Shown here piece after piece: positions 11,465-49,107 of a stretch of 64,000 nt of DNA (within the stretch, counting starts at the first letter, position 1; each line of letters opens with the position of its first letter). The notes under the pieces were generated by a model. The model was given only the letters and a program-made list of their open reading frames with translations, ran no database searches and was not told the origin of the DNA. This DNA is from Oscillospiraceae bacterium. Lineage in GTDB: Bacteria > Bacillota > Clostridia > Oscillospirales > Oscillospiraceae. The stretch lies in NCBI GenBank assembly GCA_015067435.1, contig SVMM01000001.1, positions 62,001 to 126,000 on the forward strand, in the 5' to 3' direction. Made by a program: the position numbers and the translations under genes.

Positions 11465-11532
11465 CTGAAACCAGTTCTTTCCTTTTCGAGAAAAGGAAAG
11501 AACCGTTTTCAGACTTCCAAAGAAAGGAAAAG
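11465..11532 (+). repeat. Polypurine mirror-repeat hairpin, copy 1
   Basis: The pyrimidine arm TTCTTTCCTTTTC (11475-11487) pairs with GAAAAGGAAAGAA (11490-11502). CTGAAA/TTTCAG extend the base of the stem. After AGACTTCC comes AAGAAAGGAAAAG (11520-11532), the exact mirror (same bases read backwards) of the purine arm. That arrangement permits a purine third strand antiparallel to the hairpin purine arm. It directly follows the mnmG stop. Confidence 0.75.
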
Positions 11533-11566
11533 CCTGTCGCGCCGCCGGTCATGCCTTTGTGACCGG

Positions 11567-11785
11567 TCGGCGCGATTGTTGTCGATACCGATATTCCCTC
11601 TTTCCGCTGTCGCTGCGCTTCTCCGTGCGGAGCGTTGTGTGTCGCCGCCCCGCGCGCCTCGTTGGGGATAAATCTTCCGGTTTAAGATAAAGTAGGCGCC
11701 GCCGCGAAGACGCACGATGCCGCGCATTGATGAACGAGCGCGACAGCGCAAACAGAGAAGTGACGTATCGTCATGGATGCGCCGG
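11567..11785 (+). repeat. Long intergenic repeat, first copy
   Basis: Resembles 49145-49361 over about 220 bp, with a block of 31 identical bases at 11686-11716 and other shared stretches such as GCGCGATTGTTGTCGATAC and GATGAACGAGCGCG. Between the conserved blocks are variable hairpins. The 548-bp gap between mnmG and hrcA thus holds this repeat, the two mirror hairpins and the hrcA promoter; I find no convincing gene. Its minus strand is open over part of its length in both copies. Confidence 0.75.
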
Positions 11786-11821
11786 ATATAGACGTGTGCC
11801 CTGCCACATTCGGCAAGGCGA

Positions 11822-11882
11822 TTTTCTTCTTTGTCGGGCGACACCGTTTCTTCTTTTCAAGAAAAAGAAGAAATGGGGTCGC
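11822..11882 (-). repeat. Polypurine mirror-repeat hairpin, copy 4 (inverted)
   Basis: Read on the minus strand: stem GCGACCCC / GGTGTCGC, pyrimidine arm TTTCTTCTTTT, purine arm AAAAGAAGAAA, then after a short spacer AAAGAAGAAAA (plus-strand 11822-11832), the exact 11-nt mirror of the purine arm. The sequence differs from copy 1 but the three-strand relation is the same. With copy 1 it brackets the long repeat in inverted orientation. Confidence 0.7.
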
Positions 11883-11929
11883 ATTCGTTCTCATATTTCA
11901 AGTTCACAAATCATTTACACGAAAATCTA

Positions 11930-11958
11930 TTGACATTGGCAAACTCCGGTGCTACACT
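11930..11958 (+). promoter_or_regulatory. Sigma-A promoter of the hrcA operon
   Basis: TTGACA (11930-11935), 17-bp spacer, TACACT (11953-11958), immediately upstream of the CIRCE operator. Confidence 0.85.
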
Positions 11959-11962
11959 CCGT

Positions 11963-11989
11963 TTAGCACTCAAGGAAAAGGAGTGCTAA
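11963..11989 (+). promoter_or_regulatory. CIRCE operator (HrcA binding site)
   Basis: TTAGCACTC, 9-bp spacer, GAGTGCTAA: a perfect match to the CIRCE inverted repeat. It overlaps the likely transcription start, so HrcA should repress hrcA-grpE-dnaK-dnaJ until heat or unfolded protein sequesters GroEL. Confidence 0.97.
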
Positions 11990-12002
11990 CAGGGAGACAG
12001 CG

Positions 12003-13046
12003 ATGGAATTGAGCGAGCGCAAAAAGCAAATACTGAAGGCGGTCGTCGAGCATTACATCGATTCCGCGGAGCCGGTCGGCTCCAAGATGCTCTCGCAGGA
12101 GCTGGGTGTTTCGTCCGCCACCGTGCGCAACGAGCTGGCGGAGCTGTGCGACCTCGGCTATCTGGAGCAGCCGCACACCTCGGCGGGGCGCGTGCCGTCG
12201 CCGCAGGGCTATCGGCTGTACGTCAACGAGTTGATGGAGCGTCGCAATGTCTCCCCGGAGGAGGCCGCCGGCATCGACGAGACGCTGCGCGGCAAGCTGG
12301 AGGGTATGGGCGGCGCGATGACCAACGCGGGACAGCTGGTCTCGTCCATCGTCAACTACCCCGCCTACAGCGTGACGAGCGGCAACGCTGCGCTGACGGT
12401 GGAGCGTTTCGAGCTTCTCCCCGTCGACGCGACGAGCTTCATCACCGTCGTGATGACCAGCGACAAGAGCGTGAAGAGCCAGCTGCAAAGCGCGGCGCTC
12501 GCCTTTGACGCCGCCCGTCTGGGCGATCTCAAGAACCTGCTGAACACGCATTTCACCGGCAAGAGCCGCGCCGAAATGAGCACGCGCCTGATGAGCGTGG
12601 GTGAGCAGCTCTCCCCCGAGCTGTTCCTCGTCCTCTCCAAGACCGTCGAGTACGCCTCCGGTATTCTGGACGAGGCGTCGCGGCGCGACGTGGAGACCAC
12701 CGGCGCGAGCCGCATCCTCAAGATGCCTGAATACCGCGACGTGGACCGCGCGCACGAGCTGATGACCTTCCTCGTGGACAACAAGGAGAACCTGCCCGTG
12801 CCGGACGACGGCGCGCCGCTCAAGATCCTCATCGGTCCGGAGAACGTCAGCGAGGCGCTGCGCGACACCAGCGTCGTCGTCGCCAGCTACGACATCGGCG
12901 ACGGGATGCGCGGGCTGGTGGGCGTCGTTGGCCCGACGCGCATGGACTACGCCACCGTCACCGCGCGGCTTTCCTACTTTGCCGAGAGCATGGCGAAGAT
13001 GTTCGGAAAGAACGAGCTGCCCCCGGCGGAGAAATCAGACACGTAA
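12003..13046 (+). CDS. hrcA: Heat-inducible transcription repressor HrcA
   Basis: Represses class I heat-shock genes by binding CIRCE, with GroEL as co-factor. The 347 residues have an N-terminal winged helix (ERKKQILKAVVEHYIDSAEP, then SSATVRNELAELCDLGYLEQ), a GAF-like middle and the conserved C-terminal GLVGVVGPTRMDY. The start ATG lies 13 bp after the CIRCE half-site, behind gggagacagcg. First gene of the hrcA-grpE-dnaK-dnaJ operon and autoregulated. Confidence 0.97.
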   Translation: MELSERKKQILKAVVEHYIDSAEPVGSKMLSQELGVSSATVRNELAELCDLGYLEQPHTSAGRVPSPQGYRLYVNELMERRNVSPEEAAGIDETLRGKLEGMGGAMTNAGQLVSSIVNYPAYSVTSGNAALTVERFELLPVDATSFITVVMTSDKSVKSQLQSAALAFDAARLGDLKNLLNTHFTGKSRAEMSTRLMSVGEQLSPELFLVLSKTVEYASGILDEASRRDVETTGASRILKMPEYRDVDRAHELMTFLVDNKENLPVPDDGAPLKILIGPENVSEALRDTSVVVASYDIGDGMRGLVGVVGPTRMDYATVTARLSYFAESMAKMFGKNELPPAEKSDT

Positions 13047-13072
13047 GCAACATCCCAAAGGAGTCGAGATAT

Positions 13073-13708
13073 ATGGCAAAGGAACCGGAAGAAAAGAAAA
13101 TGGACGCGCCGGCGGAGACGCCGGACGTCGAGGAGACCGCAAAGGCGGAAGCCGCCGCGGAGCAGCCCGGGGCGGTTGAGCCGCAGGAGACAGCGGACGC
13201 GGCAAAGGAGCCGGACGCCGCAAAGGAGCCGGAGACCTTCACCGTCACCGCGGAGCAGATGGAGAAGATGGAGGCGCTGGCACAGCAGCTCTCGGAGCAG
13301 CAGGACAAATTCCTGCGCCTCGCCGCGGAGTACGACAACTACCGCAAGCGCACCGCGAAGGAGAAGGAGAACATCTACGCCGACGCGAAGATTGAAACGC
13401 TGACCGCGATGCTCCCCGTCTACGACAATCTGGAGCGCGGGCTCGCGCAGTTCAAGAACGAGGACGAGGATTCCCCGCACCGCAAGGGGCTGGAGATGAT
13501 CTTCTCGCAGTTCAGGGAAAGCCTCGCCAAGCTGGGCGTCACCACGATCGACGCCGTGGGCAAGCCCTTTGACCCGGAAAAGCACAACGCCGTGATGCAC
13601 GTGGAGGACGAGACCGTCGGCGAAAACACAGTGGTCGAGGTTTTGCAGCAGGGCTTCCTGCTGGGCGACAGGGTGCTGCGCTTTGCCATCGTCAAGGTCG
13701 CGAACTGA
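13073..13708 (+). CDS. grpE: Nucleotide exchange factor GrpE
   Basis: Releases ADP from DnaK. The 211 residues begin with a low-complexity Glu/Ala/Pro-rich segment (about 1-65), followed by the dimerising long helix (QDKFLRLAAEYDNYRKRTAKE) and the C-terminal beta domain ending in GVTTIDAVGKPFDPEKHNAV and QGFLLGDRVLRFAIVKVAN. Start supported by ccaaaggagtcg. It lies between hrcA and dnaK; a parS-like site follows in the gap before dnaK. Confidence 0.96.
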   Translation: MAKEPEEKKMDAPAETPDVEETAKAEAAAEQPGAVEPQETADAAKEPDAAKEPETFTVTAEQMEKMEALAQQLSEQQDKFLRLAAEYDNYRKRTAKEKENIYADAKIETLTAMLPVYDNLERGLAQFKNEDEDSPHRKGLEMIFSQFRESLAKLGVTTIDAVGKPFDPEKHNAVMHVEDETVGENTVVEVLQQGFLLGDRVLRFAIVKVAN

Positions 13709-13719
13709 ATTCGACAAAA

Positions 13720-13735
13720 TGTTTCACATGAAACA
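13720..13735. promoter_or_regulatory. parS-like site between grpE and dnaK
   Basis: TGTTTCACATGAAACA differs from the Firmicutes parS consensus TGTTTCACGTGAAACA at one central position. It is a near-perfect palindrome about 24 kb from the origin-proximal site at 37607. Confidence 0.6.
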
Positions 13736-13785
13736 ATCCACAACCGTCAACAAATAAAATTGAGATATACGAGGAGGCAATTATC

Positions 13786-15654
<1,869 letters not shown>

Positions 15655-15672
15655 CAGGCAAAAACCACCGCG

Positions 15673-15697
15673 GGGACAGCTCCCAGTGAGCTGCCCC
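15673..15697 (+). other. Hairpin in the dnaK-dnaJ gap
   Basis: GGGGACAGCTC and GAGCTGCCCC pair over 10 bp with one bulged A and a short loop. No T-run follows, so a role in mRNA processing or stability between dnaK and dnaJ is more likely than termination. Confidence 0.5.
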
Positions 15698-15725
15698 CGA
15701 ATGTGGCGTTTTAAGGAGATTTTCC

Positions 15726-16862
15726 ATGGCTGACAAACGTGATTACTACGAGGTACTGGGCCTGCAAAAGGGCGCCTCGGAGGAAGAGATCAAAAAAGCC
15801 TACAAGAAGCTCGCGCGCAAGTACCATCCGGACATGAACCCCGGCGACAAGACCGCCGAGGAGAAGTTCAAGGAGGTCAACGAGGCGAACGAGATCCTCT
15901 CCGACCCGCAGAAGAAGGCGCGCTACGACCAGTTTGGCTTCGCCGGCGTTGACCCGAGCTACGGCGCGGGCACCGGCGGCTACGGCGGCGGCATGGACTT
16001 CGACTTCGGCGATCTGGGCGACCTGTTCGGCAGCTTTTTCGGCGGCGGCTTCGGCGGCTCCTCCCGCGCGAACCCCAACGCGCCGACGCGCGGCGAGAGC
16101 CTGCGCACCAGCGTCAACATCACGTTCGAGGAGGCTTGCTTCGGCTGCGAGAAGGACGTCATTATCGAGCGCGTGGAGCAGTGCGAGACCTGCAAGGGCT
16201 CCGGCTGCGAGGCGGGCACCACCGCCGAGATCTGCCCGGACTGCAAAGGCCGCGGCATGGTGCAGCAGCGCCACCAGACGCCGCTGGGCTTCATGTCCAC
16301 CTCGGCGCCCTGTTCGCGCTGCGGCGGGCGCGGCAAGATCATCCACAAGCCCTGCAAGACCTGCGGCGGGCGCGGCATGGCGCGCAAGCGCAAGACGCTC
16401 AAGGTCAGCATCCCTGCCGGCATCGACAACGGGCAGACGATCTCGCTGCGCGGCCAGGGCAACGCCGGCAAGAACGGCGGCCCGGCGGGCGACCTGCTGA
16501 TCGTCATCTCGGTGCGTCAGCATGAGATCTTCCGCCGCGAGGGCACGAGCATCCTCTGCGAGGCGCCGATCACCTTCGCGCAGGCGGCGCTCGGCGCGGA
16601 GCTGGAGATCCCGACCATCGACGGCAAGGTGAAGTATGCCATCCCGGAGGGCACGCAGTCCGGCGACGTGTTCCGCCTCAAGGGCAAGGGCGTGCCGGGC
16701 CTAGGCGGCCGCGCGCGCGGCGACCAGTACGTCACCGTGTACATCGAGACGCCGCGCAACCTGAACAAGGAGCAAAAGGCTGCGCTGAAGAAGTTCAGCG
16801 AGCTGCTGGGCGAGAAAAACTACGAGGAGAGCAAGAGCTTCTTCGGCAAGTTCAAAAAATGA
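15726..16862 (+). CDS. dnaJ: Chaperone DnaJ (Hsp40, type I)
   Basis: Co-chaperone that stimulates DnaK ATPase. The 378 residues have the J domain with HPD ([11 protein letters not shown]), a Gly/Phe-rich linker (about 75-125), the zinc-binding region with four repeats [32 protein letters not shown], and the C-terminal substrate-binding domains. RBS taaggagattttcc. Last classic gene of the heat-shock operon; the next ORF starts 8 bp downstream and may be co-transcribed. Confidence 0.98.
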
Positions 16863-16870
16863 GGGTCTGA

Positions 16871-17944
16871 GTGTTTATGCGTAATACCGGAACGCGGGGC
16901 TATCTGGGCTACCGCGGGCGGCGGAGCGCCGGCAGGAAGTGGATCGTCTTCGCGCTGGTGCTGATCCTGCTGGCAGCCGCCGCATTTCTGCTCGCGCAGC
17001 AGTACATCGTCTACGACATGGACGGCTCTTATCACTTCGAGCTGCCCTGGTCGCACCACGGCGGCACGCAGCAGACGTCGCACCACGGCGGAAGACAGGA
17101 TCTGGAGATCATCATCGAGCGGCCCGAGGAACCGGAGCCGGAGAAGATCCCGCTCCACGCGCAGGAGCTGGACGCCTCCGCCCTGACGGCGGACAAGATG
17201 AACGCGGCGCTCGCCGCTCTGCCGGAGGGCGTGAACAGCGTCGCCGTCCGTCTCAAGACGGTGAAGGGCGAGCTGCTCTACCCCTCGCAGCTCGCCGACG
17301 CGGCGGAGGCGAAGGCGGTCGCGGGCAAGGACGAGGCGCGCGCCGCCATCGAAACGCTGACGGCGTCGGGCCGCTATACCATCGCGCGGCTCGCCATGCT
17401 GCACGACAGCCGCTATTCCTTCGCGCACATGGTCGAGGCGTCCATTTTGCAGCGCAACTACAAGAACTACGTCTGGTACGCGCCGGACAGCAGCTTCTAC
17501 CTCGCGCCCGAGAAGGAGATGGCGCGGCAGTACCTGTGCAACATCGCCGCGGAGGTCGCGTCGATGGGCTTTGACGAGCTGCTGCTCGACGAGTTCGGCT
17601 ATCCCACGAAGGGGCGGCTGAGCAACATCTTCACCGACGACCGCGAGATGACGATGGAGGCGGCGCTGGCGCTGCTGGCGGACAATCTGCGCGAGACCGT
17701 CTCCGAGTACGGCGTCAAGCTCTCGCTGACGATGGACGAAAAGACCGTGCTGAACGGCTCGGACGAAAAATCCGGACAGAATCTCGCGGATCTCGCCATC
17801 CGCTTTGACCGCATCTATGTTCCCACCACGGCGGACAAGATCCCCGCGCTGGAGGAGGCGCTCGCCCCCTACAGCGCCGAGCTGGTGCCGATCCTCAAGA
17901 CCGCGCCCGCCGAGGGCGATTACCTGCTGACGCAAGGAGGCTGA
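16871..17944 (+). CDS. Membrane-anchored glycoside hydrolase-like protein (DUF4015 type)
   Basis: Probable envelope protein with a TIM-barrel glycosidase-like domain of unknown substrate. 357 residues from GTG 16871 (spacing to GAGGG favours it; ATG 16877 is the alternative). It has an N-terminal basic stretch, one transmembrane segment (about 26-48), a His/Gln/Glu/Pro-rich linker, then a barrel domain with FDELLLDEFGYPTKGRLSNI, resembling the acidic strand-end motif of putative glycosyl hydrolases. Family assignment is by resemblance only. It lies between dnaJ and xth, 2 bp before xth, so it is translationally linked to the repair gene. Confidence 0.65.
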   Translation: MFMRNTGTRGYLGYRGRRSAGRKWIVFALVLILLAAAAFLLAQQYIVYDMDGSYHFELPWSHHGGTQQTSHHGGRQDLEIIIERPEEPEPEKIPLHAQELDASALTADKMNAALAALPEGVNSVAVRLKTVKGELLYPSQLADAAEAKAVAGKDEARAAIETLTASGRYTIARLAMLHDSRYSFAHMVEASILQRNYKNYVWYAPDSSFYLAPEKEMARQYLCNIAAEVASMGFDELLLDEFGYPTKGRLSNIFTDDREMTMEAALALLADNLRETVSEYGVKLSLTMDEKTVLNGSDEKSGQNLADLAIRFDRIYVPTTADKIPALEEALAPYSAELVPILKTAPAEGDYLLTQGG

Positions 17945-17946
17945 CC

Positions 17947-18699
17947 ATGCGCCTGATCTCATGGAACGTCAACGGGCTGCGCGCCTGTTTGAACAAGGGC
18001 TTTCTCGATTCGATCGCGGCGATTGATCCGGATGTGATCTGTTTGCAGGAGACGAAGCTCCAGGAGCATCAGGTCAGCTTCGACCTGCCCGGCTATCACC
18101 GCTACTGGAATTGCGCCGACAAGGCGGGCTACTCCGGCACGGCGGTCTTCACCAAGACGGAGCCGCTGTCCGTCGCGCTCGACTTCGGCGAGGACATCCA
18201 CCGCCACGAGGGGCGCGTCATCACCGCGGAATACCCCGATTTCTACCTCGTTTGCTGCTACACGCCGAACGCGCAGGACGAGCTGCGGCGTCTGGACTAC
18301 CGGATGCAGTGGGAGGACGACCTGCGCGGCTACCTCTGCCAGCTCGATTTGGTCAAGCCCGTGGTCTACTGCGGCGACCTGAACGTGGCGCACGAGGAGA
18401 TCGACCTCAAGAACCCTAAGACGAACCACTTCAACCCCGGCTTCTCCGACGAGGAGCGCGGCAAGATGACCGAGCTGCTCGGCGCCGGGTTCATCGACAC
18501 CTTCCGCACGCTGCACCCCGACGCGCGCGACGCCTATTCCTGGTGGAGCTACCGCGCGCAGTCGCGCGCGCGGAACGTGGGCTGGCGCATCGACTATTTC
18601 ATCGTCTCCGCGCGGCTGCGCGACCGCGTTGAGACGGCGTCCATCCTGCCGGAGGTCACGGGCAGCGACCACTGCCCCGTTTTACTGGAATTATCGTGA
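17947..18699 (+). CDS. xth: Exodeoxyribonuclease III (AP endonuclease)
   Basis: Cuts at abasic sites and degrades DNA 3-prime ends in base-excision repair. The 250 residues carry all EEP-family motifs: ISWNVNGLRA, CLQETKLQ (catalytic Glu), YCGDLNVAHEEIDL (Asp/Asn), and the closing GSDHCPV with the catalytic His. The TRP-region SWWSYRAQSRARNVGWRIDY is present. It starts 2 bp after the upstream gene. Its last codons form one arm of an 18-bp inverted repeat that continues past the stop. Confidence 0.97.
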   Translation: MRLISWNVNGLRACLNKGFLDSIAAIDPDVICLQETKLQEHQVSFDLPGYHRYWNCADKAGYSGTAVFTKTEPLSVALDFGEDIHRHEGRVITAEYPDFYLVCCYTPNAQDELRRLDYRMQWEDDLRGYLCQLDLVKPVVYCGDLNVAHEEIDLKNPKTNHFNPGFSDEERGKMTELLGAGFIDTFRTLHPDARDAYSWWSYRAQSRARNVGWRIDYFIVSARLRDRVETASILPEVTGSDHCPVLLELS

Positions 18700-18715
18700 T
18701 AATTCCGGTAAAACG
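18678..18715 (+). repeat. Inverted repeat whose left arm is the 3-prime end of xth
   Basis: CGTTTTACTGGAATTATC (18678-18695, coding) is followed after 2 nt by GATAATTCCGGTAAAACG (18698-18715), its complement with one G-T wobble. The xth stop lies in the turn. No proper T-run follows. Dispersed hairpin copy D begins 14 bp later. Same layout as at the gpmI end. Confidence 0.75.
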
Positions 18716-18723
18716 GATTTTAT

Positions 18724-18766
18724 GTCGGTTTCGCTCGCCGTTTGTGCGGCAACCGCGAAGCATGAC
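18724..18766 (+). repeat. Dispersed hairpin element, copy D
   Basis: TTTCGC (18729-18734), TC, GCCGT, loop TTGT, GCGGC, AACC, GCGAAG (18755-18760). The flanking GTC (18724-18726) and GAC (18764-18766) replace the GCC/GGC of copies A, C and E with pairing kept. It lies in the 3-prime region of xth. Confidence 0.75.
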
Positions 18767-18767
18767 G

Positions 18768-18793
18768 AAAATCCCGCTATATTGCGGGATTTT
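18768..18793 (+). terminator. Terminator after xth
   Basis: AAAATCCCGC (18768-18777) pairs with GCGGGATTTT (18784-18793); it closes the hrcA-to-xth plus-strand block. Confidence 0.7.
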
Positions 18794-18830
18794 GTCTTTC
18801 GCCGTCCGCAGACGGACCAAATCACATTAA

Positions 18831-18864
18831 AAGAGCCTCCCGCGGTTCGTGAACCGCGGGAGGC
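18831..18864 (-). terminator. Terminator of the SLH-domain gene
   Basis: GCCTCCCGCGGTTC (18835-18848), loop GT, GAACCGCGGGAGGC (18851-18864): a perfect 14-bp stem. On the minus strand it is followed by TCTTTT. Confidence 0.8.
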
Positions 18865-18881
18865 TTGTATTATTGTTTCTG

Positions 18882-19511
18882 TCAGCGGCCCGTCGTGCGC
18901 GTCACGGCGCCGGAGGCCTCCAGCGCCTGAAGCAGCGTGCGGTTCTGCCCCTTGAGTTTCGCATCCAGCGCCGCCGCAGAGATGATCGCCGCGTCGCCGC
19001 GGGTAAATTCGTACGTGTCCGCGTTGTAACGCCCGTCGGTGATGCCCAGCTTGTCGGACAGCTCCCACGACTGATACCATTTGAAGTCGGTATCGCTGCT
19101 GTAGCCCAGCGCGCGCAGCACAAACGTGATATACTGCGCGGCGGACACGGCGGTCCCGCCGCTGTAGATCGTCCTGCCCGTGCCGTTGGTCAGCTTATTG
19201 GCGTAAGCATAGCCCACATAGGGCTTCGCCCAATCGGTGAGATCGGTGAACGGCGTTGTCCACTTTCCGGTGATCGCCTCGTTTTCCTTTCCCAGGAGGC
19301 GCACGAGCATCGTCACCGCCTCGTTGCGGGTGGGTGTGCGTTCGAGGCTGAAGATCGGCGTGCCGTCCGGATTGGTTCCCGTGCCGCGGAACAGCCCCAG
19401 CTCGTAGAGCCTCTGTGCAGCGTTTTCCGCCTCCGACCCCGCGGCGCGGGAGGTCGGACAGACGCACAGCAGCATCGTCAGCGCCAGCGCAAGGCAAATG
19501 AGTCTTTTCAT
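18882..19511 (-). CDS. Secreted protein with S-layer homology (SLH) domains
   Basis: Predicted exported cell-surface protein. From ATG 19511 (AGGAGG upstream: aaaggaggaaaacgacc) it has 209 residues. A signal peptide MKRLICLALALTMLLCVCPT with processing near SRAAG comes first, then about three SLH-like repeats marked by AAQRLYELGLFRG, TRNEAVTMLVRLLGKE, FTDLTDWAKPYVGYAYANKL and ISAAALDAKLKGQ. SLH domains bind pyruvylated or other secondary wall polymers. No other domain follows, so it may be a small anchor or a remnant of a larger surface protein. Confidence 0.85.
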   Translation of the reverse strand: MKRLICLALALTMLLCVCPTSRAAGSEAENAAQRLYELGLFRGTGTNPDGTPIFSLERTPTRNEAVTMLVRLLGKENEAITGKWTTPFTDLTDWAKPYVGYAYANKLTNGTGRTIYSGGTAVSAAQYITFVLRALGYSSDTDFKWYQSWELSDKLGITDGRYNADTYEFTRGDAAIISAAALDAKLKGQNRTLLQALEASGAVTRTTGR

Positions 19512-19544
19512 GGTCGTTTTCCTCCTTTTTTGATCCGCTTCTGC

Positions 19545-19583
19545 AAAAAAGGGCACAGCGGGACTATCGGTCCGCTGTCGCCC
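19545..19583 (-). terminator. Terminator of mreB
   Basis: On the minus strand GGGC(G)ACAGCGG pairs with CCGCTGTGCCC across a 9-10 nt loop and runs into TTTTTT. Confidence 0.75.
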
Positions 19584-19595
19584 TTTCGTTTCTTT

Positions 19596-20621: not shown

Positions 20622-20673
20622 AGTTATACCTCTTATTTCAAACGAAATTCTCGTGTATATGCCCAGTATTACT

Positions 20674-20702
20674 ATTATATCCGCTCATCCGCCGGTTTGC
20701 AA
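20674..20702 (-). promoter_or_regulatory. Promoter of mreB
   Basis: On the minus strand TTGCAA (20697-20702), 17-bp spacer, TATAAT (20674-20679), about 50 bp upstream of the mreB start. Confidence 0.75.
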
Positions 20703-20846
20703 TATTGTTTGCGACAAAAGTTTGCCGTTTTCGTGGCTTTTTTCTCGCCAATTCGCCCGCTTTCGGCGCTCCGGCGTCCGTTTGCGCGCCATTTTCCAGT
20801 TTTCCGCCGGCGCGGCGGTTCTATGTACGCGCGCCGCCGCCAAAAA

Positions 20847-30177: not shown

Positions 30178-30214
30178 TGGGGGTTCGCCGGTGCTCCCCG
30201 GCGGGGAACGATTT

Positions 30215-30282
30215 CTGAAACCAGTTCTTTCCTTTTCGGGAAAAGGAAAGAACCGTTTTCAGACTTCCAAAGAAAGGAAAAG
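30215..30282 (+). repeat. Polypurine mirror-repeat hairpin, copy 2
   Basis: TTCTTTCCTTTTC (30225-30237) pairs with GAAAAGGAAAGAA (30240-30252), inside the CTGAAA/TTTCAG stem, and is followed by the exact mirror AAGAAAGGAAAAG (30270-30282). It is nearly identical to copy 1 but lacks the long repeat. Its third-strand segment doubles as the ribosome-binding region of thiI (start 30288). Confidence 0.75.
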
Positions 30283-30287
30283 ACAAA

Positions 30288-31457
30288 ATGGAAATGATAC
30301 TCTGCAAGCTCGGCGAGGTTGTATTGAAGGGCCTCAACCGCCGCAGCTTTGAGGATAAGCTCCTCTCCAACCTCCGCCGCCGCGTGGCGAAGTGCGGCAG
30401 CTTCCGCGTCTACTCCAAGCAGTCCACCATCTACGTCGAGCCGACGGCGGAGGGCTGCGATCTCGACGCCGCGTTCGACGCCTGCCGGCAGGTGTTCGGC
30501 GTCGTCGCCGTATCGCGCGCGCTGCCCTGCGACAAGGACGTGCAGGCGATCGTCGCCACGGCAAAGACCTATCTGCACGACGAGTTATCCACAGCGAGGT
30601 CGTTTAAGGTGGAGAGCAAGCGCGCCGACAAGTCGTTTCCCCTGACGTCGATCCAGCTCTCGCAGCAGGTCGGCGGCGCACTGCATCAGGCGTTTCCGCA
30701 GCTCGAAGTCGACGTCCACAGCCCGGAGCTGACGATCTTCCTCGAAATCCGCGACGACGCGGCGTTCGTCCACGGCCCCGCGGTGTCCGGCGCGGGCGGG
30801 CTGCCGCTCGGCATGGGCGGCACGGCGGTGACGCTTCTCTCCGGCGGCATCGACTCCCCCGTCGCGTCGTGGATGATGGCGAAACGCGGCGTCGCGCTGG
30901 AGCCCGTGCACTTCTTCTCCCCGCCCTACACCTCCGACGCGGCGAAGGAGAAGGTCGTGGAGCTCGCGCGCGAGCTCGCGCCGTGGTGCGGCCGGATGCG
31001 GCTGCAAATCGTCCCGTTCACCGAGATCCAGGAGGAGATCCGCCGCAAGGTGCCGGAGGACTTTTTCACGCTCATCATGCGCCGCTTCATGATGCGCCTC
31101 GCCGAACGCTGCGCCGAGGAGGCGGGCGCGCGCGCCATCGTCACCGGCGAGTGCCTCGGTCAGGTCGCGAGCCAGACCATGGAGGCGCTGCGCTGCACGG
31201 AGGATGTGGTTTCCCTGCCCGTGCTGCGCCCGCTCATCGGCATGGACAAGGAGGAGATCGTCCGCGTTTCGCGCAAGATCGGCACCTTCGACACGTCGAT
31301 CCTGCCCTACGAGGACTGCTGTACCGTGTTCACGCCGCGCCACCCCAAGACCAAGCCGCACCTCGACGAGGTGCGCGAGGTCGAAGCCGCGCTCGATGTT
31401 TCGACGCTGTGCGACAAGGCGATGGCGGGCCGCGAGTTCCTGCGCATCAAACCGTGA
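30288..31457 (+). CDS. thiI: tRNA uracil-4-sulfurtransferase ThiI
   Basis: Forms 4-thiouridine at tRNA position 8 and can supply sulfur for thiazole synthesis. The 389 residues have an N-terminal ferredoxin-like and THUMP region (about 1-170), then the PP-loop ATP pyrophosphatase with LLSGGIDSPVASWMMAKRG and CLGQVASQTMEAL. It lacks the C-terminal rhodanese domain of E. coli ThiI, as is usual in Firmicutes; a cysteine desulfurase partner is not adjacent. The RBS lies within mirror-hairpin copy 2. A consensus DnaA box TTATCCACA (30585-30593) lies inside the gene, probably by chance. Confidence 0.96.
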   Translation: MEMILCKLGEVVLKGLNRRSFEDKLLSNLRRRVAKCGSFRVYSKQSTIYVEPTAEGCDLDAAFDACRQVFGVVAVSRALPCDKDVQAIVATAKTYLHDELSTARSFKVESKRADKSFPLTSIQLSQQVGGALHQAFPQLEVDVHSPELTIFLEIRDDAAFVHGPAVSGAGGLPLGMGGTAVTLLSGGIDSPVASWMMAKRGVALEPVHFFSPPYTSDAAKEKVVELARELAPWCGRMRLQIVPFTEIQEEIRRKVPEDFFTLIMRRFMMRLAERCAEEAGARAIVTGECLGQVASQTMEALRCTEDVVSLPVLRPLIGMDKEEIVRVSRKIGTFDTSILPYEDCCTVFTPRHPKTKPHLDEVREVEAALDVSTLCDKAMAGREFLRIKP

Positions 31458-38920: not shown

Positions 38921-39136
38921 ATGGAAACAATTACAATTACGACAGAGTACATCAAATTACAGGACCTGTTGAAGCTCGCCTCTCTGGTTTCGACCGGCGG
39001 CGAAGCGAAGCTGGCCGTCGTCAACGAAGAGGTGACGGTCAACGGTGAGGTCTGCACGCAGCGCGGCAGGAAAATCAGGCCCGGCGACGCGGTTTCGTTT
39101 CGCGGCCGGGAGTTGACTGTTCGGTATGAGGATTGA
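38921..39136 (+). CDS. yaaA: S4-domain RNA-binding protein YaaA (RlbA)
   Basis: 71-residue S4-like protein conserved between dnaN and recF in Firmicutes, linked to ribosome assembly in B. subtilis. The S4 core LQDLLKLASLVSTGGEAK, VNEEVTVNGEVCTQRGRKIR and PGDAVSFRG is clear. It starts 4 bp after dnaN and overlaps recF by 11 bp. Confidence 0.93.
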   Translation: METITITTEYIKLQDLLKLASLVSTGGEAKLAVVNEEVTVNGEVCTQRGRKIRPGDAVSFRGRELTVRYED

Positions 39137-40229: not shown

Positions 40230-40492
40230 ATGTATCTGCACATCGGCAACAACCAGATGCTCAGCGAGCGGCGCATCATCGGCATTTTTGACCTTGAGAT
40301 CACGTCGCAGTCGAAGATCACCTCCGCCTTTTTGAAAAACGCGGAGCAAGAGGGCGTGGTCATCGACGTCTGCGAGGACATTCCCAAAAGCTTTCTGGTC
40401 TGCGACCACCCGTATCACAGGCAGATCGTCTATTTGTCACAGTTAAACAGCCGCACCCTGATGGGCCGCGCTGAGAAACAGGAGAAGAACGT

Positions 40493-40496
<4 letters not shown>
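40230..40496 (+). CDS. remB: RemB-like DUF370 protein
   Basis: 88-residue member of the DUF370/Rem family, positioned as B. subtilis yaaB/remB between recF and gyrB. Rem proteins are DNA-binding regulators of matrix genes. The N-terminal [20 protein letters not shown] and the pattern [20 protein letters not shown] fit the family. Its ATG directly follows the recF stop, and its stop overlaps the gyrB start (ATGA). Confidence 0.88.
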
Positions 40497-42439
<1,943 letters not shown>

Positions 42440-42457
42440 GAAAGGAGGTATCTATCG

Positions 42458-44971
<2,514 letters not shown>

Positions 44972-45008
44972 TTATTCCGTATCACAGTAAGAAAGCGAAG
45001 CAAACGCA

Positions 45009-45512
45009 ATGAACGATGAATTGACCAGAGTGGACGTCGAGAAAATGAAGGCGGAGCTGGAGGACCGGCGTCTCAACATCCGCCCGAAGCTGATCGAGGA
45101 TGTGCAGACGGCGCGCGCCCACGGCGATCTGAGCGAGAATTACGAGTACAAGGTCGCCAAGCAGGAACAGCGCCGCAACGACAGCCGGATGCGCTATCTG
45201 GAAAAGATGATCGCCACGGCGAAGATCATCGACGTGAAGGACACGGGCGACGCGGTGGGTCTGTTCAGCAAGGTCGTGATGTTCAACGAAAAGCTGGGCA
45301 GGGAGCAGACGATCCGCATCGTCACAACGCTGCGGCAGGACGCGCTCAAGGGCCTCATCAGCAAGGAATCGCCCGTGGCGAAGGCGCTGATGGGACACAG
45401 GCCGGGCGAGCGCGTGGAGATCGCGGTCAGTCCGGAGATGAAGTACACGGTGGAGATCCGCTCCGTCGAGCCGGGAACGGACGACGCGAGTCTGGAGATC
45501 AGCAGCTTTTGA
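45009..45512 (+). CDS. greA: Transcription elongation factor GreA/GreB family
   Basis: Rescues backtracked RNA polymerase by stimulating transcript cleavage. 167 residues: N-terminal antiparallel coiled coil with the acidic tip AHGDLSENYEYKVAKQEQ, and a C-terminal FKBP-like domain with TLRQDALKGLISKESPVAKA, ALMGHRPGERVEI. The central segment is a little more divergent than typical GreA, so it could be a paralogue. It follows gyrA on the same strand, with only a weak RBS visible. Confidence 0.88.
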   Translation: MNDELTRVDVEKMKAELEDRRLNIRPKLIEDVQTARAHGDLSENYEYKVAKQEQRRNDSRMRYLEKMIATAKIIDVKDTGDAVGLFSKVVMFNEKLGREQTIRIVTTLRQDALKGLISKESPVAKALMGHRPGERVEIAVSPEMKYTVEIRSVEPGTDDASLEISSF

Positions 45513-45525
45513 GGGGGGACGCGAT

Positions 45526-45900
45526 ATGAAGGGACTGATCGTGGTTCTTGTGGTCATCATCTCGCTGTTGGACGCCATTGTCACAAACAAGAAGAAGGCG
45601 GAGAAAAACCGCACGAAGTCCGCGGAGAAGCTTGCGGAGATGGCGTCGCCGCTCACGCCCGGGAACCAGACGCGCCGCGGTCAAAAGCGCATGCAGATGG
45701 CGCAAAGGGAGCTGTGGCGTGAGGCGAAGACGCAGCAGGACGACGCGGGACAGGTGCATTCCATCCATATGGACTCCTGCGAAAGCCGGCTCGAAAGCCT
45801 GCGCGTGCTGTACGACGCGGGTATCCTCGACCGTGAGGAGTACGCCCAGCGCGTCGCGCGCGTGAAGGCGAAGCACGCATACGGTGCGGACGACGAATGA
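45526..45900 (+). CDS. Small membrane protein with SHOCT-like C terminus
   Basis: 124 residues: an N-terminal transmembrane helix ([20 protein letters not shown]), a basic Lys/Arg-rich middle (about 22-75), and a C-terminal SHOCT-like helix pair ([20 protein letters not shown]). SHOCT domains often tether membrane proteins to oligomers. RBS gagggggga. The stop overlaps ATG 45897 of the duplicated rnhA start (ATGA). Function unknown. Confidence 0.75.
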
Positions 45901-46022
45901 AAACTGTCACAATTTACACAGACGGCGGATTTGCTTCGCAAATCCGAGATGCCCTTTCGCTCGCCGCGCTCGCGGCAACCGCGAAAGATGGCGGCAAGCG
46001 CCGTCTGACGAAATGCCTATGA
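45897..46022 (+). CDS. Duplicated rnhA start carrying a hairpin element; 41-aa leader ORF
   Basis: ATG 45897 overlaps the previous stop (ATGA) and encodes [10 protein letters not shown], identical to the first ten residues of RNase H. The frame then runs through dispersed hairpin copy E ([20 protein letters not shown]) without a stop. It ends at TGA 46020-46022, which overlaps the ATG of intact rnhA (46019). The two ten-codon starts differ at four third positions, all silent. It may act as a coupling leader or be a broken first copy. Confidence 0.6.
45951..45992 (+). repeat. Dispersed hairpin element, copy E
   Basis: GCC (45951-45953), TTTCGC (45955-45960), TC, GCCGC, loop GCTC, GCGGC, AACC, GCGAAA (45981-45986), AT, GGC (45990-45992). 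A GATTTG-CTTCG-CAAATC hairpin precedes it. The outer flanks AGACGGCG (in the first rnhA start) and CGCCGTCT can pair, closing a larger fold. Confidence 0.8.
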
Positions 46023-46462
46023 AGACTGTAACGATTTATACAGACGGCGCTTGCAGCGGCAATCCCGGGCCGGGAGGCTGGGGCGCGGTGCTCCGGTACG
46101 GCGCGCACGAGAAGGAGCTCTCCGGCGGCGCGGCGCAGACCACGAACAACCGCATGGAGCTCACCGGCGTGATCGAGGCGCTGCGGCTGTTGAAGGAGCC
46201 GTGCATCGTCGAGCTGTATTCCGACTCCAAGTACGTCATCGACGCGCTCTCCAAGGGCTGGGTGTACGGCTGGCGGAAAAAGGGCTGGATCAAGAGCGAC
46301 AAGAAGCCCGCGCTCAACGTCGACCTGTGGGAGACGCTGCTGCCGCTCATCGAGACGCACGACGTCCGCTACCACTGGGTCAAGGGCCACGCGGAGAATG
46401 AATTCAACAACCGCTGCGACGCGATGGCCGTGGCGGAGAGCCGAAAGTACCGGCAGGATTGA
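46019..46462 (+). CDS. rnhA: Ribonuclease HI
   Basis: Degrades RNA in RNA-DNA hybrids. The 147 residues have all four catalytic acids: [16 protein letters not shown] (Asp), [12 protein letters not shown] (Glu), [12 protein letters not shown] (Asp) and NNRCDAMA (Asp). No canonical RBS precedes ATG 46019; instead it overlaps the stop of the upstream 41-aa ORF (ATGA), so reinitiation is the likely way it is translated. Confidence 0.96.
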
Positions 46463-46583
46463 AAAATCGGCTTGTTTACAGTTTGTTTACAAGCGATTCA
46501 AGAATCCGCCATAATTATCGGGTATCTTATACTTGCAAAGGGGCAACACCCCGATGTGATTTTCTCCCTCCTAAAATACACAC

Positions 46584-46635
46584 ACAACACACAGCAGCAC
46601 ACCCTGCGAGAGCAGGGTGTGCTGCTGTGTGTTGT
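46584..46635 (+). repeat. Perfect 23-bp hairpin downstream of rnhA
   Basis: Arms 46584-46606 and 46613-46635 are exact complements, made of AC- and GCA-rich sequence, with loop CGAGAG. The following bases are TGCGCG rather than T-rich; a second hairpin (GCGCGC-TGC-GCGCGC) and then TTTGATTTT come next. It may end rnhA transcription or protect the mRNA from nucleases. The remaining 46463-46720 gap shows no gene. Confidence 0.6.
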
Positions 46636-46720
46636 TGCGCGCTGCGCGCGCTTTGATTTTAATACGCGCTGACGCGCGGCTCCCCCGCCTTCGCTCGGTC
46701 GCGCCGCGGGGCAACCGCAC

Positions 46721-47494
46721 TTACTTATAGTAGTCGGTTTCGTCTTCGAGCGCCATGGGGAGGCCGTTGTGGTACACAGGGAGCGTCTGGAACTTGAAGC
46801 GGCTGGCGCGGTGCTTCGCGTCGATCTGCTCCTTGATCGCCGGGTCGCAGACGCCGCGGCGGATGTACTCGTTCACCGCGTGATAGGTGAAGCCGAGGTT
46901 GTCCTCGTCCGTCAGGCCCGTCAGCCCGTCGGACGGAGGCTTGACGAGGAAGCGCTCCGGCAGCCCCAGCTCCGCGCCGAGGGCGATGACCTCCTCGGTG
47001 GTGTACATGCCGATGGGTGAGAACGCGCCCGCGCTGTCGCCGTAGATGGTGCAGTAGCCCACCCAGTCCTCCGAGAGATTGGACGTGTTGACGACGATGC
47101 CGCTCTCCACGCTCTGCGCGACTGCGTAGAGCGTCGTCATGCGGATGCGGGACGGCAGGTTGACGGTGGTTTGGCGCGTCGGCTCGATGCCGTTGCGCTC
47201 CATCTCGTCCAGCACGCCGCGCACGGCGGCATGGATGTTGATGGTGTGGCTGCGGATGCCGAGGTGCTCCACCAGCCCGTTGGAGTAGTCGATGTCCGGC
47301 TGCACGCCGTCCGGCATCAGCACGCCGACGACGTTCTCCTTGCCGTACGCCTCGCAGCACAGCGCGGCGATGACGCTGGAATCCTTGCCGCCGGAGATAC
47401 CGACGACCGCGGTCTTGCCGCGGCAGTTCTGCATCTGCGCGCGCATCCAGTCCAAAAGGCCGGGCAGCTGCGCCTTCGCGTTGAATTCATTCAT
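46721..47494 (-). CDS. nadE: NH3-dependent NAD synthetase
   Basis: Amidates nicotinic acid adenine dinucleotide to NAD, using ammonia. 257 residues from ATG 47494 (RBS aaaaggaggcgagaccc). PP-loop GISGGKDSSVIAALC at residues 32-46, then VNTSNLSEDWVGY and the deamido-NAD pocket KPPSDGLTGLTDEDNLGF. No glutaminase domain, so ammonia is the donor. It lies downstream of gpr on the minus strand. Confidence 0.95.
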   Translation of the reverse strand: MNEFNAKAQLPGLLDWMRAQMQNCRGKTAVVGISGGKDSSVIAALCCEAYGKENVVGVLMPDGVQPDIDYSNGLVEHLGIRSHTINIHAAVRGVLDEMERNGIEPTRQTTVNLPSRIRMTTLYAVAQSVESGIVVNTSNLSEDWVGYCTIYGDSAGAFSPIGMYTTEEVIALGAELGLPERFLVKPPSDGLTGLTDEDNLGFTYHAVNEYIRRGVCDPAIKEQIDAKHRASRFKFQTLPVYHNGLPMALEDETDYYK

Positions 47495-47553
47495 GGGTCT
47501 CGCCTCCTTTTCTGCGGAGTATTGTACAACATCCGCGCGAAAATGGCAATCCC

Positions 47554-48444
47554 CTACCCCATCAGCGCGCACAGCTCCGCGAATGAGAGCGGCTGGAGCG
47601 CGAGGTCGATGCCGTAGCCCACGATACGCCCCAGCTCGCGGATCTGTGCGTCGATGTCCCGCGGCGTGACCATGACCTCCGCGCCGACGCCGCGCAGCGC
47701 GGACGCTTTCGGCGCCGGCACGCCCGCCTCCTCCAGCACGTCCAGCGCCAGCGTGCGCGCGTCCACCACCGTCGGCACGCCCACGGCGACGACCGGCACG
47801 CCCAGCGACGCGCGATCGAGTGCCCTGCGCCGGTTGCCGACGCCGGAGCCGGGCGCGATGCCCGTGTCGGTGAGCTGCACCGTGGCGCACACGCGCGAAA
47901 GCGACCGCGAGGCAAGCGCGTCCACGGCGATGAGCACGTCGGGCTTCACCGTGCGCACGGCGCCGCGGACGAGCTCCGCCGTCTCCATGCCCGTGCGCCC
48001 CAGCACGCCCGGCGTCAGCACGCTGACCGGCGTGAGCGAGGCAAACGACGCTTCGCGCGTCAGGTGCCGCGTCACCAGCACGTGCTCCGCCGCCTGCGGG
48101 CCGATGGCGTCCGGCGTCATGGCGTCGTTGCCGAGCCCCGCGACCAGCGCCGACTTCACCCCCGCCGCGCCGAGCAGCGCGCGCAGCTCCGCCGCCACCG
48201 CGCCCGCCGCGCGCTCCAGCGAATCCGCGCCGCCGAGGACGCCGCGCAGATCCAGCGTGACGTAGACGCCCATGGGTTTTCCCAGCGCCTTTGCCGCCGC
48301 GCTGTCCGTGACCTCCACCACCGTCGCGCCGCAGCCGCCGGTTTGGTGCTCGTGGGTGACGACGCCGTGCAGATCCTCCCCACCAGCCGCGTTTTTCCGC
48401 AGCTCGTGTGCCTCCAGCGCCAGATCGGTCCGTTTTGCGAACAT
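47554..48444 (-). CDS. gpr: Spore germination protease GPR
   Basis: Aspartic-like protease that degrades small acid-soluble spore proteins at germination. The 296 residues begin RTDLALEAHEL, the usual propeptide boundary, and contain the family motifs LVAGLGNDAMTPDAIGPQA and APGSGVGNRR with VVAVGVPTVVDA. Its presence is a strong marker of endospore formation. A forespore-type promoter candidate lies upstream. Confidence 0.94.
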   Translation of the reverse strand: MFAKRTDLALEAHELRKNAAGGEDLHGVVTHEHQTGGCGATVVEVTDSAAAKALGKPMGVYVTLDLRGVLGGADSLERAAGAVAAELRALLGAAGVKSALVAGLGNDAMTPDAIGPQAAEHVLVTRHLTREASFASLTPVSVLTPGVLGRTGMETAELVRGAVRTVKPDVLIAVDALASRSLSRVCATVQLTDTGIAPGSGVGNRRRALDRASLGVPVVAVGVPTVVDARTLALDVLEEAGVPAPKASALRGVGAEVMVTPRDIDAQIRELGRIVGYGIDLALQPLSFAELCALMG

Positions 48445-48484
48445 TTCTCCCGCCTCGATTCCACAAAATGTAGTGCATCGGCAT

Positions 48485-48513
48485 TAGTATCGCCACCAAG
48501 ATTTGTTTCATAC
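48485..48513 (-). promoter_or_regulatory. Candidate forespore sigma (F/G) promoter of gpr
   Basis: Minus strand GTATG (48509-48513), 17-bp spacer, GATACTA (48485-48491), resembling sigma-G/F elements; gpr is under these factors in B. subtilis. Several positions deviate. Confidence 0.35.
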
Positions 48514-48544
48514 AAAAAAAGCGTGTAAATCCGCAAAAAAAAGC

Positions 48545-48573
48545 TTGCATTTCGATGGATTCTTTGCTAAAAT
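48545..48573 (+). promoter_or_regulatory. Promoter of rpsT
   Basis: TTGCAT (48545-48550), 17-bp spacer, TAAAAT (48568-48573), about 125 bp upstream of rpsT, leaving a structured leader with hairpin copy F. Confidence 0.65.
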
Positions 48574-48615
48574 ACCAATCTGCACGGTGGGAGTTTGCCT
48601 TGCAAACTTATTTGA

Positions 48616-48660
48616 TGCGCATTGTCCTCACCCTTGCGGGGCAACCGGGCAAAATGCGCA
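48616..48660 (+). repeat. Dispersed hairpin element, copy F (rpsT leader)
   Basis: Outer stem TGCGCATT (48616-48623) / AATGCGCA (48653-48660), then GTCC/GGGC, the conserved TC, ACCC-TTGC-GGGG, and CAACC. It is the most diverged copy, yet pairing and the TC/AACC loop are preserved. It sits in the rpsT 5-prime leader. Confidence 0.65.
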
Positions 48661-48697
48661 GATACATCGTAGAACGTATTCGGAGGAGGTGTTTGGT

Positions 48698-48961
48698 TTG
48701 CCGAATATCAAGTCTGCCAAGAAGCGCGTGCAGCTTTCCGAGGTTCGCAACGCCCGCAACAAGGCGGAGCGCAGCGCGCTGAAGACCGCGCTCAAGAAGT
48801 TTGACGCTGCTGCCGCTGAGGGCAATCGCACCGAGGCCGAGGGCGCTTACAAGGTCGCGGTCAAGACCGTGGACAAGGCTGTGGCGAAGGGCATTCTGCA
48901 CAAGAACAACGCCGCGCACAAGAAGAGCGCGCTGACGCTGAAGCTCAACGGCCTGAACTGA
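48698..48961 (+). CDS. rpsT: Ribosomal protein S20 (TTG start)
   Basis: 87-residue basic 30S protein. Starts PNIKSAKKRVQLSEVRNARN after the initiator and ends KKSALTLKLNGLN, matching S20. The only start consistent with the RBS GGAGGAGG (8-nt spacing) and the family N terminus is TTG 48698. Non-ATG starts are a known route of S20 autogenous control in E. coli. Confidence 0.96.
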   Translation: MPNIKSAKKRVQLSEVRNARNKAERSALKTALKKFDAAAAEGNRTEAEGAYKVAVKTVDKAVAKGILHKNNAAHKKSALTLKLNGLN

Positions 48962-48972
48962 TGGCAACACAC

Positions 48973-49009
48973 AAAGGCATCGCCGCATGGCGATGCCTTT
49001 TCGTTTTTC
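48973..49009 (+). terminator. Terminator of rpsT
   Basis: AAAGGCATCGCC (48973-48984), loop GCAT, GGCGATGCCTTT (48989-49000), then TTCGTTTTT. Confidence 0.85.
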
Positions 49010-49038
49010 CGCCGTACCCGCGGCGGGGGGAACGGTTC

Positions 49039-49107
49039 CTGAAACCGCCTTTTCTCTTTCTCTTGCGAAAGAGAAAACACGGTTTCAGACTTCCCCAAAA
49101 GAGAAAG
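49039..49107 (+). repeat. Polypurine mirror-repeat hairpin, copy 3
   Basis: Outer stem CTGAAACCG / CGGTTTCAG (49039-49047, 49080-49088). The pyrimidine arm TTTTCTCTTTC (49050-49060) pairs with GAAAGAGAAAA (49067-49077). The third segment AAAAGAGAAAG (49097-49107) is the exact mirror. All three segments differ from copies 1 and 2, but the same relation holds. Confidence 0.75.

Follow-up and report, generated by a model that had tools for sequence, protein, structure and literature searches.

Dispersed repeats of gut Clostridia carry hairpin and mirror-strand modules that were probably selected for intramolecular triplex formation

Whether cells use intrastrand triplexes is an old question, for which the best studied bacterial candidate, TM_ECO/BoxC, being essentially one sequence, offers no evolutionary test. 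The present analysis concerns a 64 kb window (the whole stretch of DNA analysed, from an Oscillospiraceae genome), in which an earlier note had pointed to four places, each with a pyrimidine arm, a complementary purine arm and then a purine segment mirroring the latter exactly (13, 13, 11 and 11 nt). The hairpins and their mirrors are there, and the coordinates hold (Table 1). The first and fourth places are the two ends of a single element, which matches its reverse complement at 63.6% identity over 472 columns and in which the outer stem P1 of the right module is unlike that of the left. Element 2 (95% identity to element 1 over 79 columns) lies between a Mg-chelatase ChlI-type gene and thiI, and element 3 is 77% identical to element 1 over 337 columns. 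The window places are thus ends or parts of dispersed repeats, the pattern of which has 21 exact copies in the genome itself. Each module contains, in order, the outer stem P1 of 8-9 bp, a homopyrimidine/homopurine hairpin P2 of about 10-13 bp, a six-base linker and a purine third strand.

Table 1. Positions of the three elements and of their module parts in the window (Y, pyrimidine arm; R, purine arm)
Feature	Position	Strand	Remarks
Element 1	11449-11898		whole imperfect palindrome, mnmG/gidA–hrcA intergenic, candidate triplex module at both ends
Element 1 left module, outer stem P1 5' arm	11465-11473	+	CTGAAACC plus mismatch-tolerant pair 9
Element 1 left module, pyrimidine arm	11475-11487	+	TTCTTTCCTTTTC, 13 nt
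Element 1 left module, purine arm	11490-11502	+	GAAAAGGAAAGAA, 13 nt
Element 1 left module, outer stem P1 3' arm	11505-11512	+	
Element 1 left module, six-base linker	11513-11518	+	ACTTCC
Element 1 left module, third strand	11520-11532	+	AAGAAAGGAAAAG, mirrors the purine arm exactly, 13 nt
Element 1 right module	11822-11882	-	P1 GCGACCCC/GGTGTCGC; Y 11873-11863, R 11857-11847, third strand 11832-11822 (11 nt)
Element 2, module alone	30204-30282	+	Y 30225-30237, R 30240-30252, third strand 30270-30282 (13 nt)
Element 3, left module and arm of related element	49028-49362	+	between rpsT and T-box/aminoacyl-tRNA synthetase gene
Element 3 module	49039-49107	+	P1 49039-49046, Y 49050-49060, R 49067-49077 (11 nt)
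Element 3 module, 3' half	P1 3' arm 49080-49088, linker 49089-49094, third strand 49097-49107	+	third strand 11 nt

Both strands of the window were scanned for hairpins with arms of 7, 8 or 9 nt and loops of 2-10, a mirror being sought at most 58 nt away. Four homopurine hairpins of 9 bp or more were present, each with an exact mirror of its purine arm nearby, whereas 150 dinucleotide-preserving shuffles (arms of 7) yielded no mirror for 50 hairpin counts; shuffled sequence thus does not produce such mirrors equally often. Two of the three window sequences compared in the earlier note are nearly mirror-symmetric internally, and the strong evidence is that of a wider module set.

This set was collected with a search model containing the hairpin only, from which the third segment had been excluded. 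The model matched 15 of 18 genomes of the genus, and dozens of copies with hairpin and third strand were found in these gut bacteria. From a selection of its listed matches, 113 of 124 oriented modules were used and collapsed into 83 distinct ones; 14 ambiguous contexts were excluded, and 11 modules were left out because their linker similarity fell short of 5 of 6 (by eye, these include non-modules but also some with a third strand, such as L236, L301 and right-end modules). At one fixed register the third strand agrees with the stem at 777 of 820 positions (94.8%), compared with 68.4% (sd 1.6, maximum 73.5) when tails were swapped, although the modules are related, so that permutation counts exaggerate their independence, and gene conversion could overwrite whole modules with other copies. 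With one module per stem core, agreement is 92.4% vs 64.8% in the control. The third strand has A opposite T.A in 582 of 594 cases and G opposite C.G in 215 of 227, and its base is no longer fixed where the purine tract is interrupted. Among 16 stem cores compared, it matches 12 exactly, three at 8/9 positions and one not; the core CCGTTTTTC, without a third strand, was retained among the 16. The linker reads ACTTCC in 72 of the 83 modules, and the third strand has been lost in one of 34 copies examined (L027). The stem itself covaries, 11 of 22 pairs being changed on both sides (49 cells, vs 17.9 shuffled and 3-10 slid), and at one orthologous site in two species, with flanks alike, the Y arm, the R arm and the third strand each differ by 3 nt in length. 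The third segment thus follows stem changes in further genomic copies, as had been claimed from the window, and the comparison of the 83 modules supports the view that the three strands change together as an antiparallel purine triplex would require. An extra small stem, P0 (GCG..CGC), lying outside P1 and after the third strand, is weakly conserved; it would clash with the geometry of a full triplex.

Alternatively, there may be no triplex at all, the third segment being a purine tract of low complexity, a directly repeated R arm or a Watson-Crick partner of the Y arm that looks like a mirror by chance. The arms are A/G-rich, many cores are nearly mirror-symmetric, and direct matches of at least 8 nt are common among the copies; at the 14 mirror loci found outside the genus, a direct match is equally long in four and one base shorter in four more. 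However, a direct-repeat model reaches 66.6% at its best register over all modules, well below the mirror agreement that swapped tails fail to give, register and linker are fixed, and the third-strand preference disappears at purine-tract interruptions. Within the genus this explanation is already contradicted, and overall we consider it highly improbable.

The third strand obeys A·A.T and G·G.C rules (antiparallel, class II) in a fixed register, with triads beginning at stem pair 10 or 12. We know of no copying process that produces a mirror sequence, and selection for the triads is therefore the best reading. The third strand is 71% A and the triads are about 71% A·A.T. The purine motif is driven by G-G-C triplets, according to the parts consulted of PMC4666352, and its A-rich triplexes should be weak. 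The complementary strand encodes a pyrimidine-motif triplex (T·A.T, C+·G.C; class IV), which the A-rich composition fits at least as well, and the pyrimidine version on this other strand may therefore be the real one. The earlier note had left open DNA or RNA; the purine motif reportedly does not form in RNA (PMC4666352, in part), which for the purine strand leaves DNA.

For the complementary strand, RNA could be the working molecule: a U-rich third strand followed by the hairpin would give a major-groove triple helix of U.A-U and C+.G-C triads, of the kind protecting RNA 3' ends, and a transcript entering a full element from either side would carry one such module. Pyrimidine triplexes form in RNA (PMC4666352, in the parts consulted), and the T.A-rich composition would suit them. 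A stop codon lies 6-22 nt ahead of the stem in 34 of 82 modules, whereas seven control positions, each shifted, gave 2-9%, and in 33 of 42 cases the ORF flanking on the outer side points at the module. Stem mismatches over pairs 1-22 are G.T 33 and A.C 34, nearly equal and hence no strong sign of RNA, and pairs 12-20 have hardly any wobble, either G.T or A.C. Without pair 9 they are G.T 2 and A.C 15 (7 at pair 10, 3 at pair 1; few events), and since A.C is G.T on the complementary strand, this is a weak hint of RNA there; it lowers very slightly our confidence in DNA, which stays the probable molecule, and raises by as little that in RNA. On the other hand, lone modules such as element 2 would appear in transcripts of the upstream gene as the purine version, said not to fold in RNA, and Rfam gave nothing at gathering score for nine loci (sub-threshold matches, nearly all to microRNA models) and only the T-box in the window. 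An RNA role is judged unlikely.

The same position behind genes would suit a transcription-linked DNA device, in which the displaced coding strand after a stop codon folds into the purine triplex, halts or slows RNA polymerase and insulates convergent genes. Stop-codon adjacency and the orientation of the flanking ORFs agree with it, as does the small number of intrinsic terminator-like sites inside the element (14 of 81 within 160 nt; upstream, over at most 180 nt, 8 of 81). However, element 3 already stands behind a good terminator-like hairpin (48973-49000) after rpsT, nine of 42 ends face gene starts, and BoxC/PIT elements are described as without terminator activity in the parts consulted of PMC4666352; such a device seems decidedly doubtful. 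Intrinsic termination as the main role is disfavoured by the hairpin ahead of element 3 and by the site counts.

The arrangement of the copies is that of dispersed repeats. Neighbouring hairpins at most 1600 bp apart are convergent in 19 of 31 pairs, some modules terminate palindromes of 0.4-0.75 kb, and inverted end modules on a short non-coding element are a MITE-like trait, some elements nevertheless containing small ORFs. Inspection by eye of the flanks of the 31 pairs revealed no target-site duplication. Five inner ORFs were tested, comprising two HTH regulators, one weak below-cut-off match to a membrane protein and two without a family; no transposase was among them, and a parent transposon was not found. 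A REP/RAYT system was rejected, as Y1_Tnp (PF01797) has no match in the genome itself and, among 18 genomes of the genus, just one, a partial one. The thiI upstream region has no such hairpin in 16 of 16 relatives (one with 226 nt read).

P1 is alike among modules within the genus, where the search model favours it, and differs in other genera, in which a mirror accompanies other stems at 14 of 17 loci. From the 24 order loci (L318-L341), 16 were used, the rest being one of the own genus, four near-duplicates and three incomplete ones. The exact outer stem was found in 2 of 300 genomes of the family, both of the own genus (three genomes with a reversed-pattern control), and a search of the class gave 2 of 391 genomes, of which the one from beyond the order (G947, L342) lacks a third strand. 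A scan of genome contigs with the outer-stem pattern gave at least 116 stretches, by eye nearly all chance; useful among the matches listed were the genus members L105 and L138 and a Planctomycetota MAG, J132 (L083, L099, L130, L159). The latter matches a 40-nt version with identical outer bases 86 times, and it was rejected as covariation evidence, its A5 third segment being invariant in the 22 copies (20 loci) examined.

Taken together, these are probably dispersed REP/MITE-like DNA repeats whose modules were selected for the ability to form an intramolecular triplex. The linker would bring the third strand back across P1 into the P2 groove, and folding would occur when negative supercoiling extrudes the strand or when the strand is single, be it in replication, in a transcription bubble or R-loop, or in a mobility intermediate. 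P1 may be the address for a putative trans-acting protein spreading the elements, the triplex would keep the element end in a defined shape, and insertion directly after stop codons could be tolerated or targeted. Somewhat short of an even chance, in our estimate, is the broader proposal that a selected natural triplex serves as the folded end signal of palindromic mobile elements that recur, with differing P1 addresses, across several genera and families within a single order of gut Clostridia. The module set offers the sort of comparative evidence by which RNA secondary structures were established, and the natural modules supply ready-made compensatory variants.

Several known systems share part of this design. 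Like REP/BIME and MITE, the elements are short, palindromic, extragenic and dispersed, often near gene ends, with inverted end modules; they differ in the added third strand, in the missing PF01797 match in the genome and in the want of a target-site duplication visible by eye. As in H-DNA, a homopurine mirror repeat is present, its halves (the R arm and the third strand) standing 17-19 nt apart. H-DNA requires neither a pyrimidine arm on the same strand nor an outer stem, whereas both are conserved here and one strand alone could fold. The complementary strand would give U.A-U triads as in the ENE, MALAT1 and telomerase RNA triple helices, but with the order third strand, stem, Y, R and with mixed C+.G-C.

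The closest known relatives are the intrastrand triplex repeats, namely class II PIT elements, BoxC and TM_ECO, as described in the parts consulted of Holder et al. (2015, PMC4666352), on which the following comparison draws. The order of Y arm, R arm and mirror purine third strand is shared, as are the intergenic, multicopy occurrence, sometimes as inverted pairs, and the patchy distribution among close relatives. PIT elements are defined by 6-7 or more triads and no more than one mismatch, and the present modules have 11-13 exact ones in the window and 94.8% agreement over the 83 modules. TM_ECO, whose loops measure 3-6 and 3 nt, is G/C-rich and essentially one sequence; DMS probing in vivo did not support a stable triplex for this E. 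coli repeat. In contrast, about 71% of the triads are A·A.T here, the third strand tracks 15 of 16 stem cores, and the A-rich arms and other outer sequence depart from the BoxC/TM_ECO consensus CCCTCNCCC..GGGNGAGGG..GGGNGAGGG. The second loop, of 17 nt (19 in element 3), holds the 3' arm of the separate stem P1 and exceeds the PIT loop limits of 1-6 nt (ITxF) and 0-10 nt (Hoyne, as quoted there); the 1-6 nt limit of the published finder would miss the modules, which thus reveal a class with a stem between hairpin and third strand. In the literature covered, with few subscription papers, no report of the element or of three-strand covariation was found besides PMC4666352 on relatives. New relative to PIT/BoxC are the three-strand covariation, the inserted stem and the A-rich triads.

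All four places in the window (GC content 63.5%) named in the earlier note hold a hairpin whose 5′ arm is pyrimidine and whose 3′ arm is purine, and after each comes a segment that exactly mirrors the purine arm. The hairpins stood place by place and their arm lengths had to be revised upwards, as an outer stem, P1, formed by CTGAAACC paired with GTTTTCAG or GGTTTCAG, sits beneath the pyrimidine/purine stem, P2 (Y arm and R arm), and a six-base linker, ACTTCC, separates P1 from the third segment. These four places are the only homopurine hairpins of at least 9 bp (loop 2–10) in the 64 kb, and the mirror is found in 4/4; 150 dinucleotide shuffles yielded 50 hairpin counts at an arm length of 7, none with a mirror, an outcome that favours the reading of that note. 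A CTTG loop is often kept as the arms vary, the loop being TCTTGC in 25/83 and TCTTG in 16/83 of the distinct modules.

Modules, elements and neighbouring features in window coordinates
Feature	Position	Description	Flanks
Element 1	11449-11898	Imperfect palindrome; places one (11465) and four (minus strand, 11882-11822) are its two ends	mnmG/gidA and hrcA
Element 2	30204-30282	Place two (30215), a stand-alone module	Mg-chelatase ChlI-type gene and thiI
Element 3	49028-49362	Related to element 1; place three (49039) is its left end	rpsT and aminoacyl-tRNA synthetase gene preceded by T-box
Stretch with the third strand of element 2, AAGAAAGGAAAAG	30270-30290	Third strand directly 5′ of the thiI start codon; could act as its ribosome-binding site	
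Inverted repeat TTAGCACTC-N9-GAGTGCTAA	11963-11989	5′ of hrcA; presumably a CIRCE-type operator	
T-box leader, Rfam RF00230	49564-49773	3′ of element 3; precedes class II aminoacyl-tRNA synthetase gene	
Separate dispersed repeat TTTCGCTCGCCGC..GCGGCAACCGCGAAA	2114, 2284, 3539, 18720, 45946, 48612	Six listed copies; the one at 48612 merely 60% alike	

Adding 77 stretches around listed model matches to the loci already collected, a finder that uses the hairpin only gave 124 oriented modules; the linker filter kept 113, which collapse to 83 distinct ones. All were read in a single register, with third-strand position p facing stem pair 10+p, and a position was scored as fitting when it held A on T.A, G on C.G, or a base otherwise complementary to the Y base. 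The third strand fitted at 777/820 positions (p2 to p11), compared with 68.4% when tails were swapped among modules (sd 1.6, maximum 73.5%, 2000 trials) and 43–55% in eight alternative registers; the third segment thus does track stem changes, as had been proposed from the window alone. When each of the 16 stem cores was represented by a single module, 12 were exact, three agreed at 8 of 9 positions and one missed, an agreement of 92.4% versus 64.8% after swapping (sd 3.5, maximum 78.5%, 20000 trials). An earlier test on 34 exact-pattern copies, one of which (L027) has lost its third strand, was in agreement (sum 369 vs 246.9, sd 11.4, maximum 293). The rival relation, a direct repeat of the R arm, reached at best 66.6%.

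Over p2 to p12, A lies on T.A in 582/594 cases and G on C.G in 215/227. Opposite inverted G.C pairs in the same interval the third strand is G 16, A 13, C 4 and T 3 times, and the rule ends where a purine triplex must end. Positions p0 and p1 are instead G and T in many modules (38 and 37 of 83), and the triads therefore begin at pair 10 or pair 12. Pair 9, just under the triplex, is a conserved mismatch-tolerant junction (G.T 31, G.C 30, A.C 19 and A.T 3 among the 83 distinct modules), and its A.C form also occurs in three loci of two further genomes (L318 in G094; L319 and L331 in G364).

The source genome (3.34 Mb, 36 contigs) holds 21 exact matches to the outer-stem pattern and none to the reversed control, and the pattern was found in 8/18 genus genomes. 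In an alignment of 18 copies, built together with a covariance model from which the third segment was left out, 11/22 stem pairs changed on both sides, with 49 both-side-change cells observed versus 17.9 after shuffling and 3 to 10 when slid. At a cut-off of E <= 0.01 the model matched 15/18 genus genomes and gave 61 matches within the source genome; in these counts one hairpin can match both strands and low-match genomes are included on model match alone. At one orthologous locus of two genomes (L036 in G006, L039 in G016; 92.7% identical over 1928 columns), there is a three-base length difference in the Y arm, in the R arm and in the third strand alike; the L036 R arm carries one mismatch, and the third strand of L036 matches Y. 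Conversion may have replaced the module as a whole, since G006 holds a module with the L039 core elsewhere, at the right end of L031. By conversion or not, the three strands move as one unit.

Beyond the genus, the third-strand-blind model matched 14/295 genomes of the order (8/148 genera). Seventeen loci were tested, namely 16/24 order loci (one own-genus, four near-duplicate and three end-incomplete loci being set aside) and one class locus. A mirror of at least 8 nt occurred in 14/17, on the 3′ side or on the 5′ side as read on the other strand, and was absent in L326, L333 and L342; the best run averaged 10 versus 7.76 with swapped flanks (sd 0.31, 0/3000). The loci with a mirror represent nine genomes, six genera and four families. 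Counting against the mirror reading, direct matches equalled the mirror in length in 4/14 of these loci and were one base shorter in 4 more, because those eight sequences are almost symmetric. G094, from another genus of the source genome's family, carries elements of ~0.75 kb in which the modules are inverted and P1 has another sequence (CCAGGACC/GGTCCTGG). The class-level search matched one genome outside the order, and that match was without the third strand. J132, a Planctomycetota MAG (G954; L083, L099, L130, L159), gave 86 matches to a short hairpin that shares the outer bases TTCCTGAAACC..TTTCAGACTTCC with the modules and has an A5 tract, for which shared origin and misbinning are both candidates.

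In 34/82 modules the stem begins 6–22 nt after the stop of an ORF that is 60 codons or longer, versus 2–9% at seven shifted positions, and the automatically chosen outer flanking ORF points towards the module in 33 of 43 loci (away in 9, undetermined in 1). Among 31 neighbouring hairpin pairs at most 1600 bp apart, 19 are convergent, the remainder including non-modules and unoriented hairpins. Small genes may sit between modules; none of the five inner ORFs tested was a transposase. Two loci from two species (L243, L253) encode, between their modules, small proteins (93 and 101 aa) which resemble each other on visual comparison and have no Pfam or NCBIfam match. At the end of L022 (G003), the module is followed by a sequence whose motif resembles the 5′ terminus of group II introns. 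A 9-bp homopurine hairpin was absent upstream of thiI in 16/16 relatives read there (600 nt scanned, 226 nt only at one locus) and upstream of hrcA in 16/16 read there (600 nt, 106 nt only at one locus), minus-strand gene starts being set from an assumed gene length. Because the thiI site lacks the hairpin in relatives, and in eight of these the preceding gene stops no more than about 25 nt from thiI, element 2 would most simply be an insertion in the source lineage. The hrcA site offers no clean empty site, because its upstream gene varies among relatives.

To our knowledge, such arbitrary letter matching can be maintained only by base pairing, and we know of no copying process that produces a mirror. 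Antiparallel A*A.T and G*G.C triads constitute the purine motif; the complementary strand carries the T*A.T and C+*G.C triads of the pyrimidine motif, and the covariation fits both alike. Because the third strand is 71% A, the putative pyrimidine version deserves weight equal to the purine one. Over all pairs, stem mismatches are G.T 33 and A.C 34, mostly at pair 9, and because the two are nearly equal there is no strong RNA signature; outside pair 9 they are G.T 2 and A.C 15, few events, and the lean to the complementary strand is weak. DNA is the better guess than RNA as the working molecule. The repeat would move or be moved, with P1 possibly serving as its address and the triplex as the shape of the element's end. 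A REP transposase as the mover was excluded for the source genome, judged on PF01797 alone.

According to PMC4666352, purine triplexes depend on G-G-C triplets and those of the pyrimidine kind on T-A-T, RNA forms no purine triplexes, and class II intrastrand triplex repeats are already known as PIT, BoxC and TM_ECO. The present modules differ from these in lying outside the published limits, with a second loop of 17–19 nt that holds a stem arm and with A-rich triads. As far as searches show, three features are new, with no report in the literature searched: covariation of all three strands, the stem that is inserted, and occurrence across several genera. Judging from their sequence, the modules would function like class II intrastrand triplex repeats.
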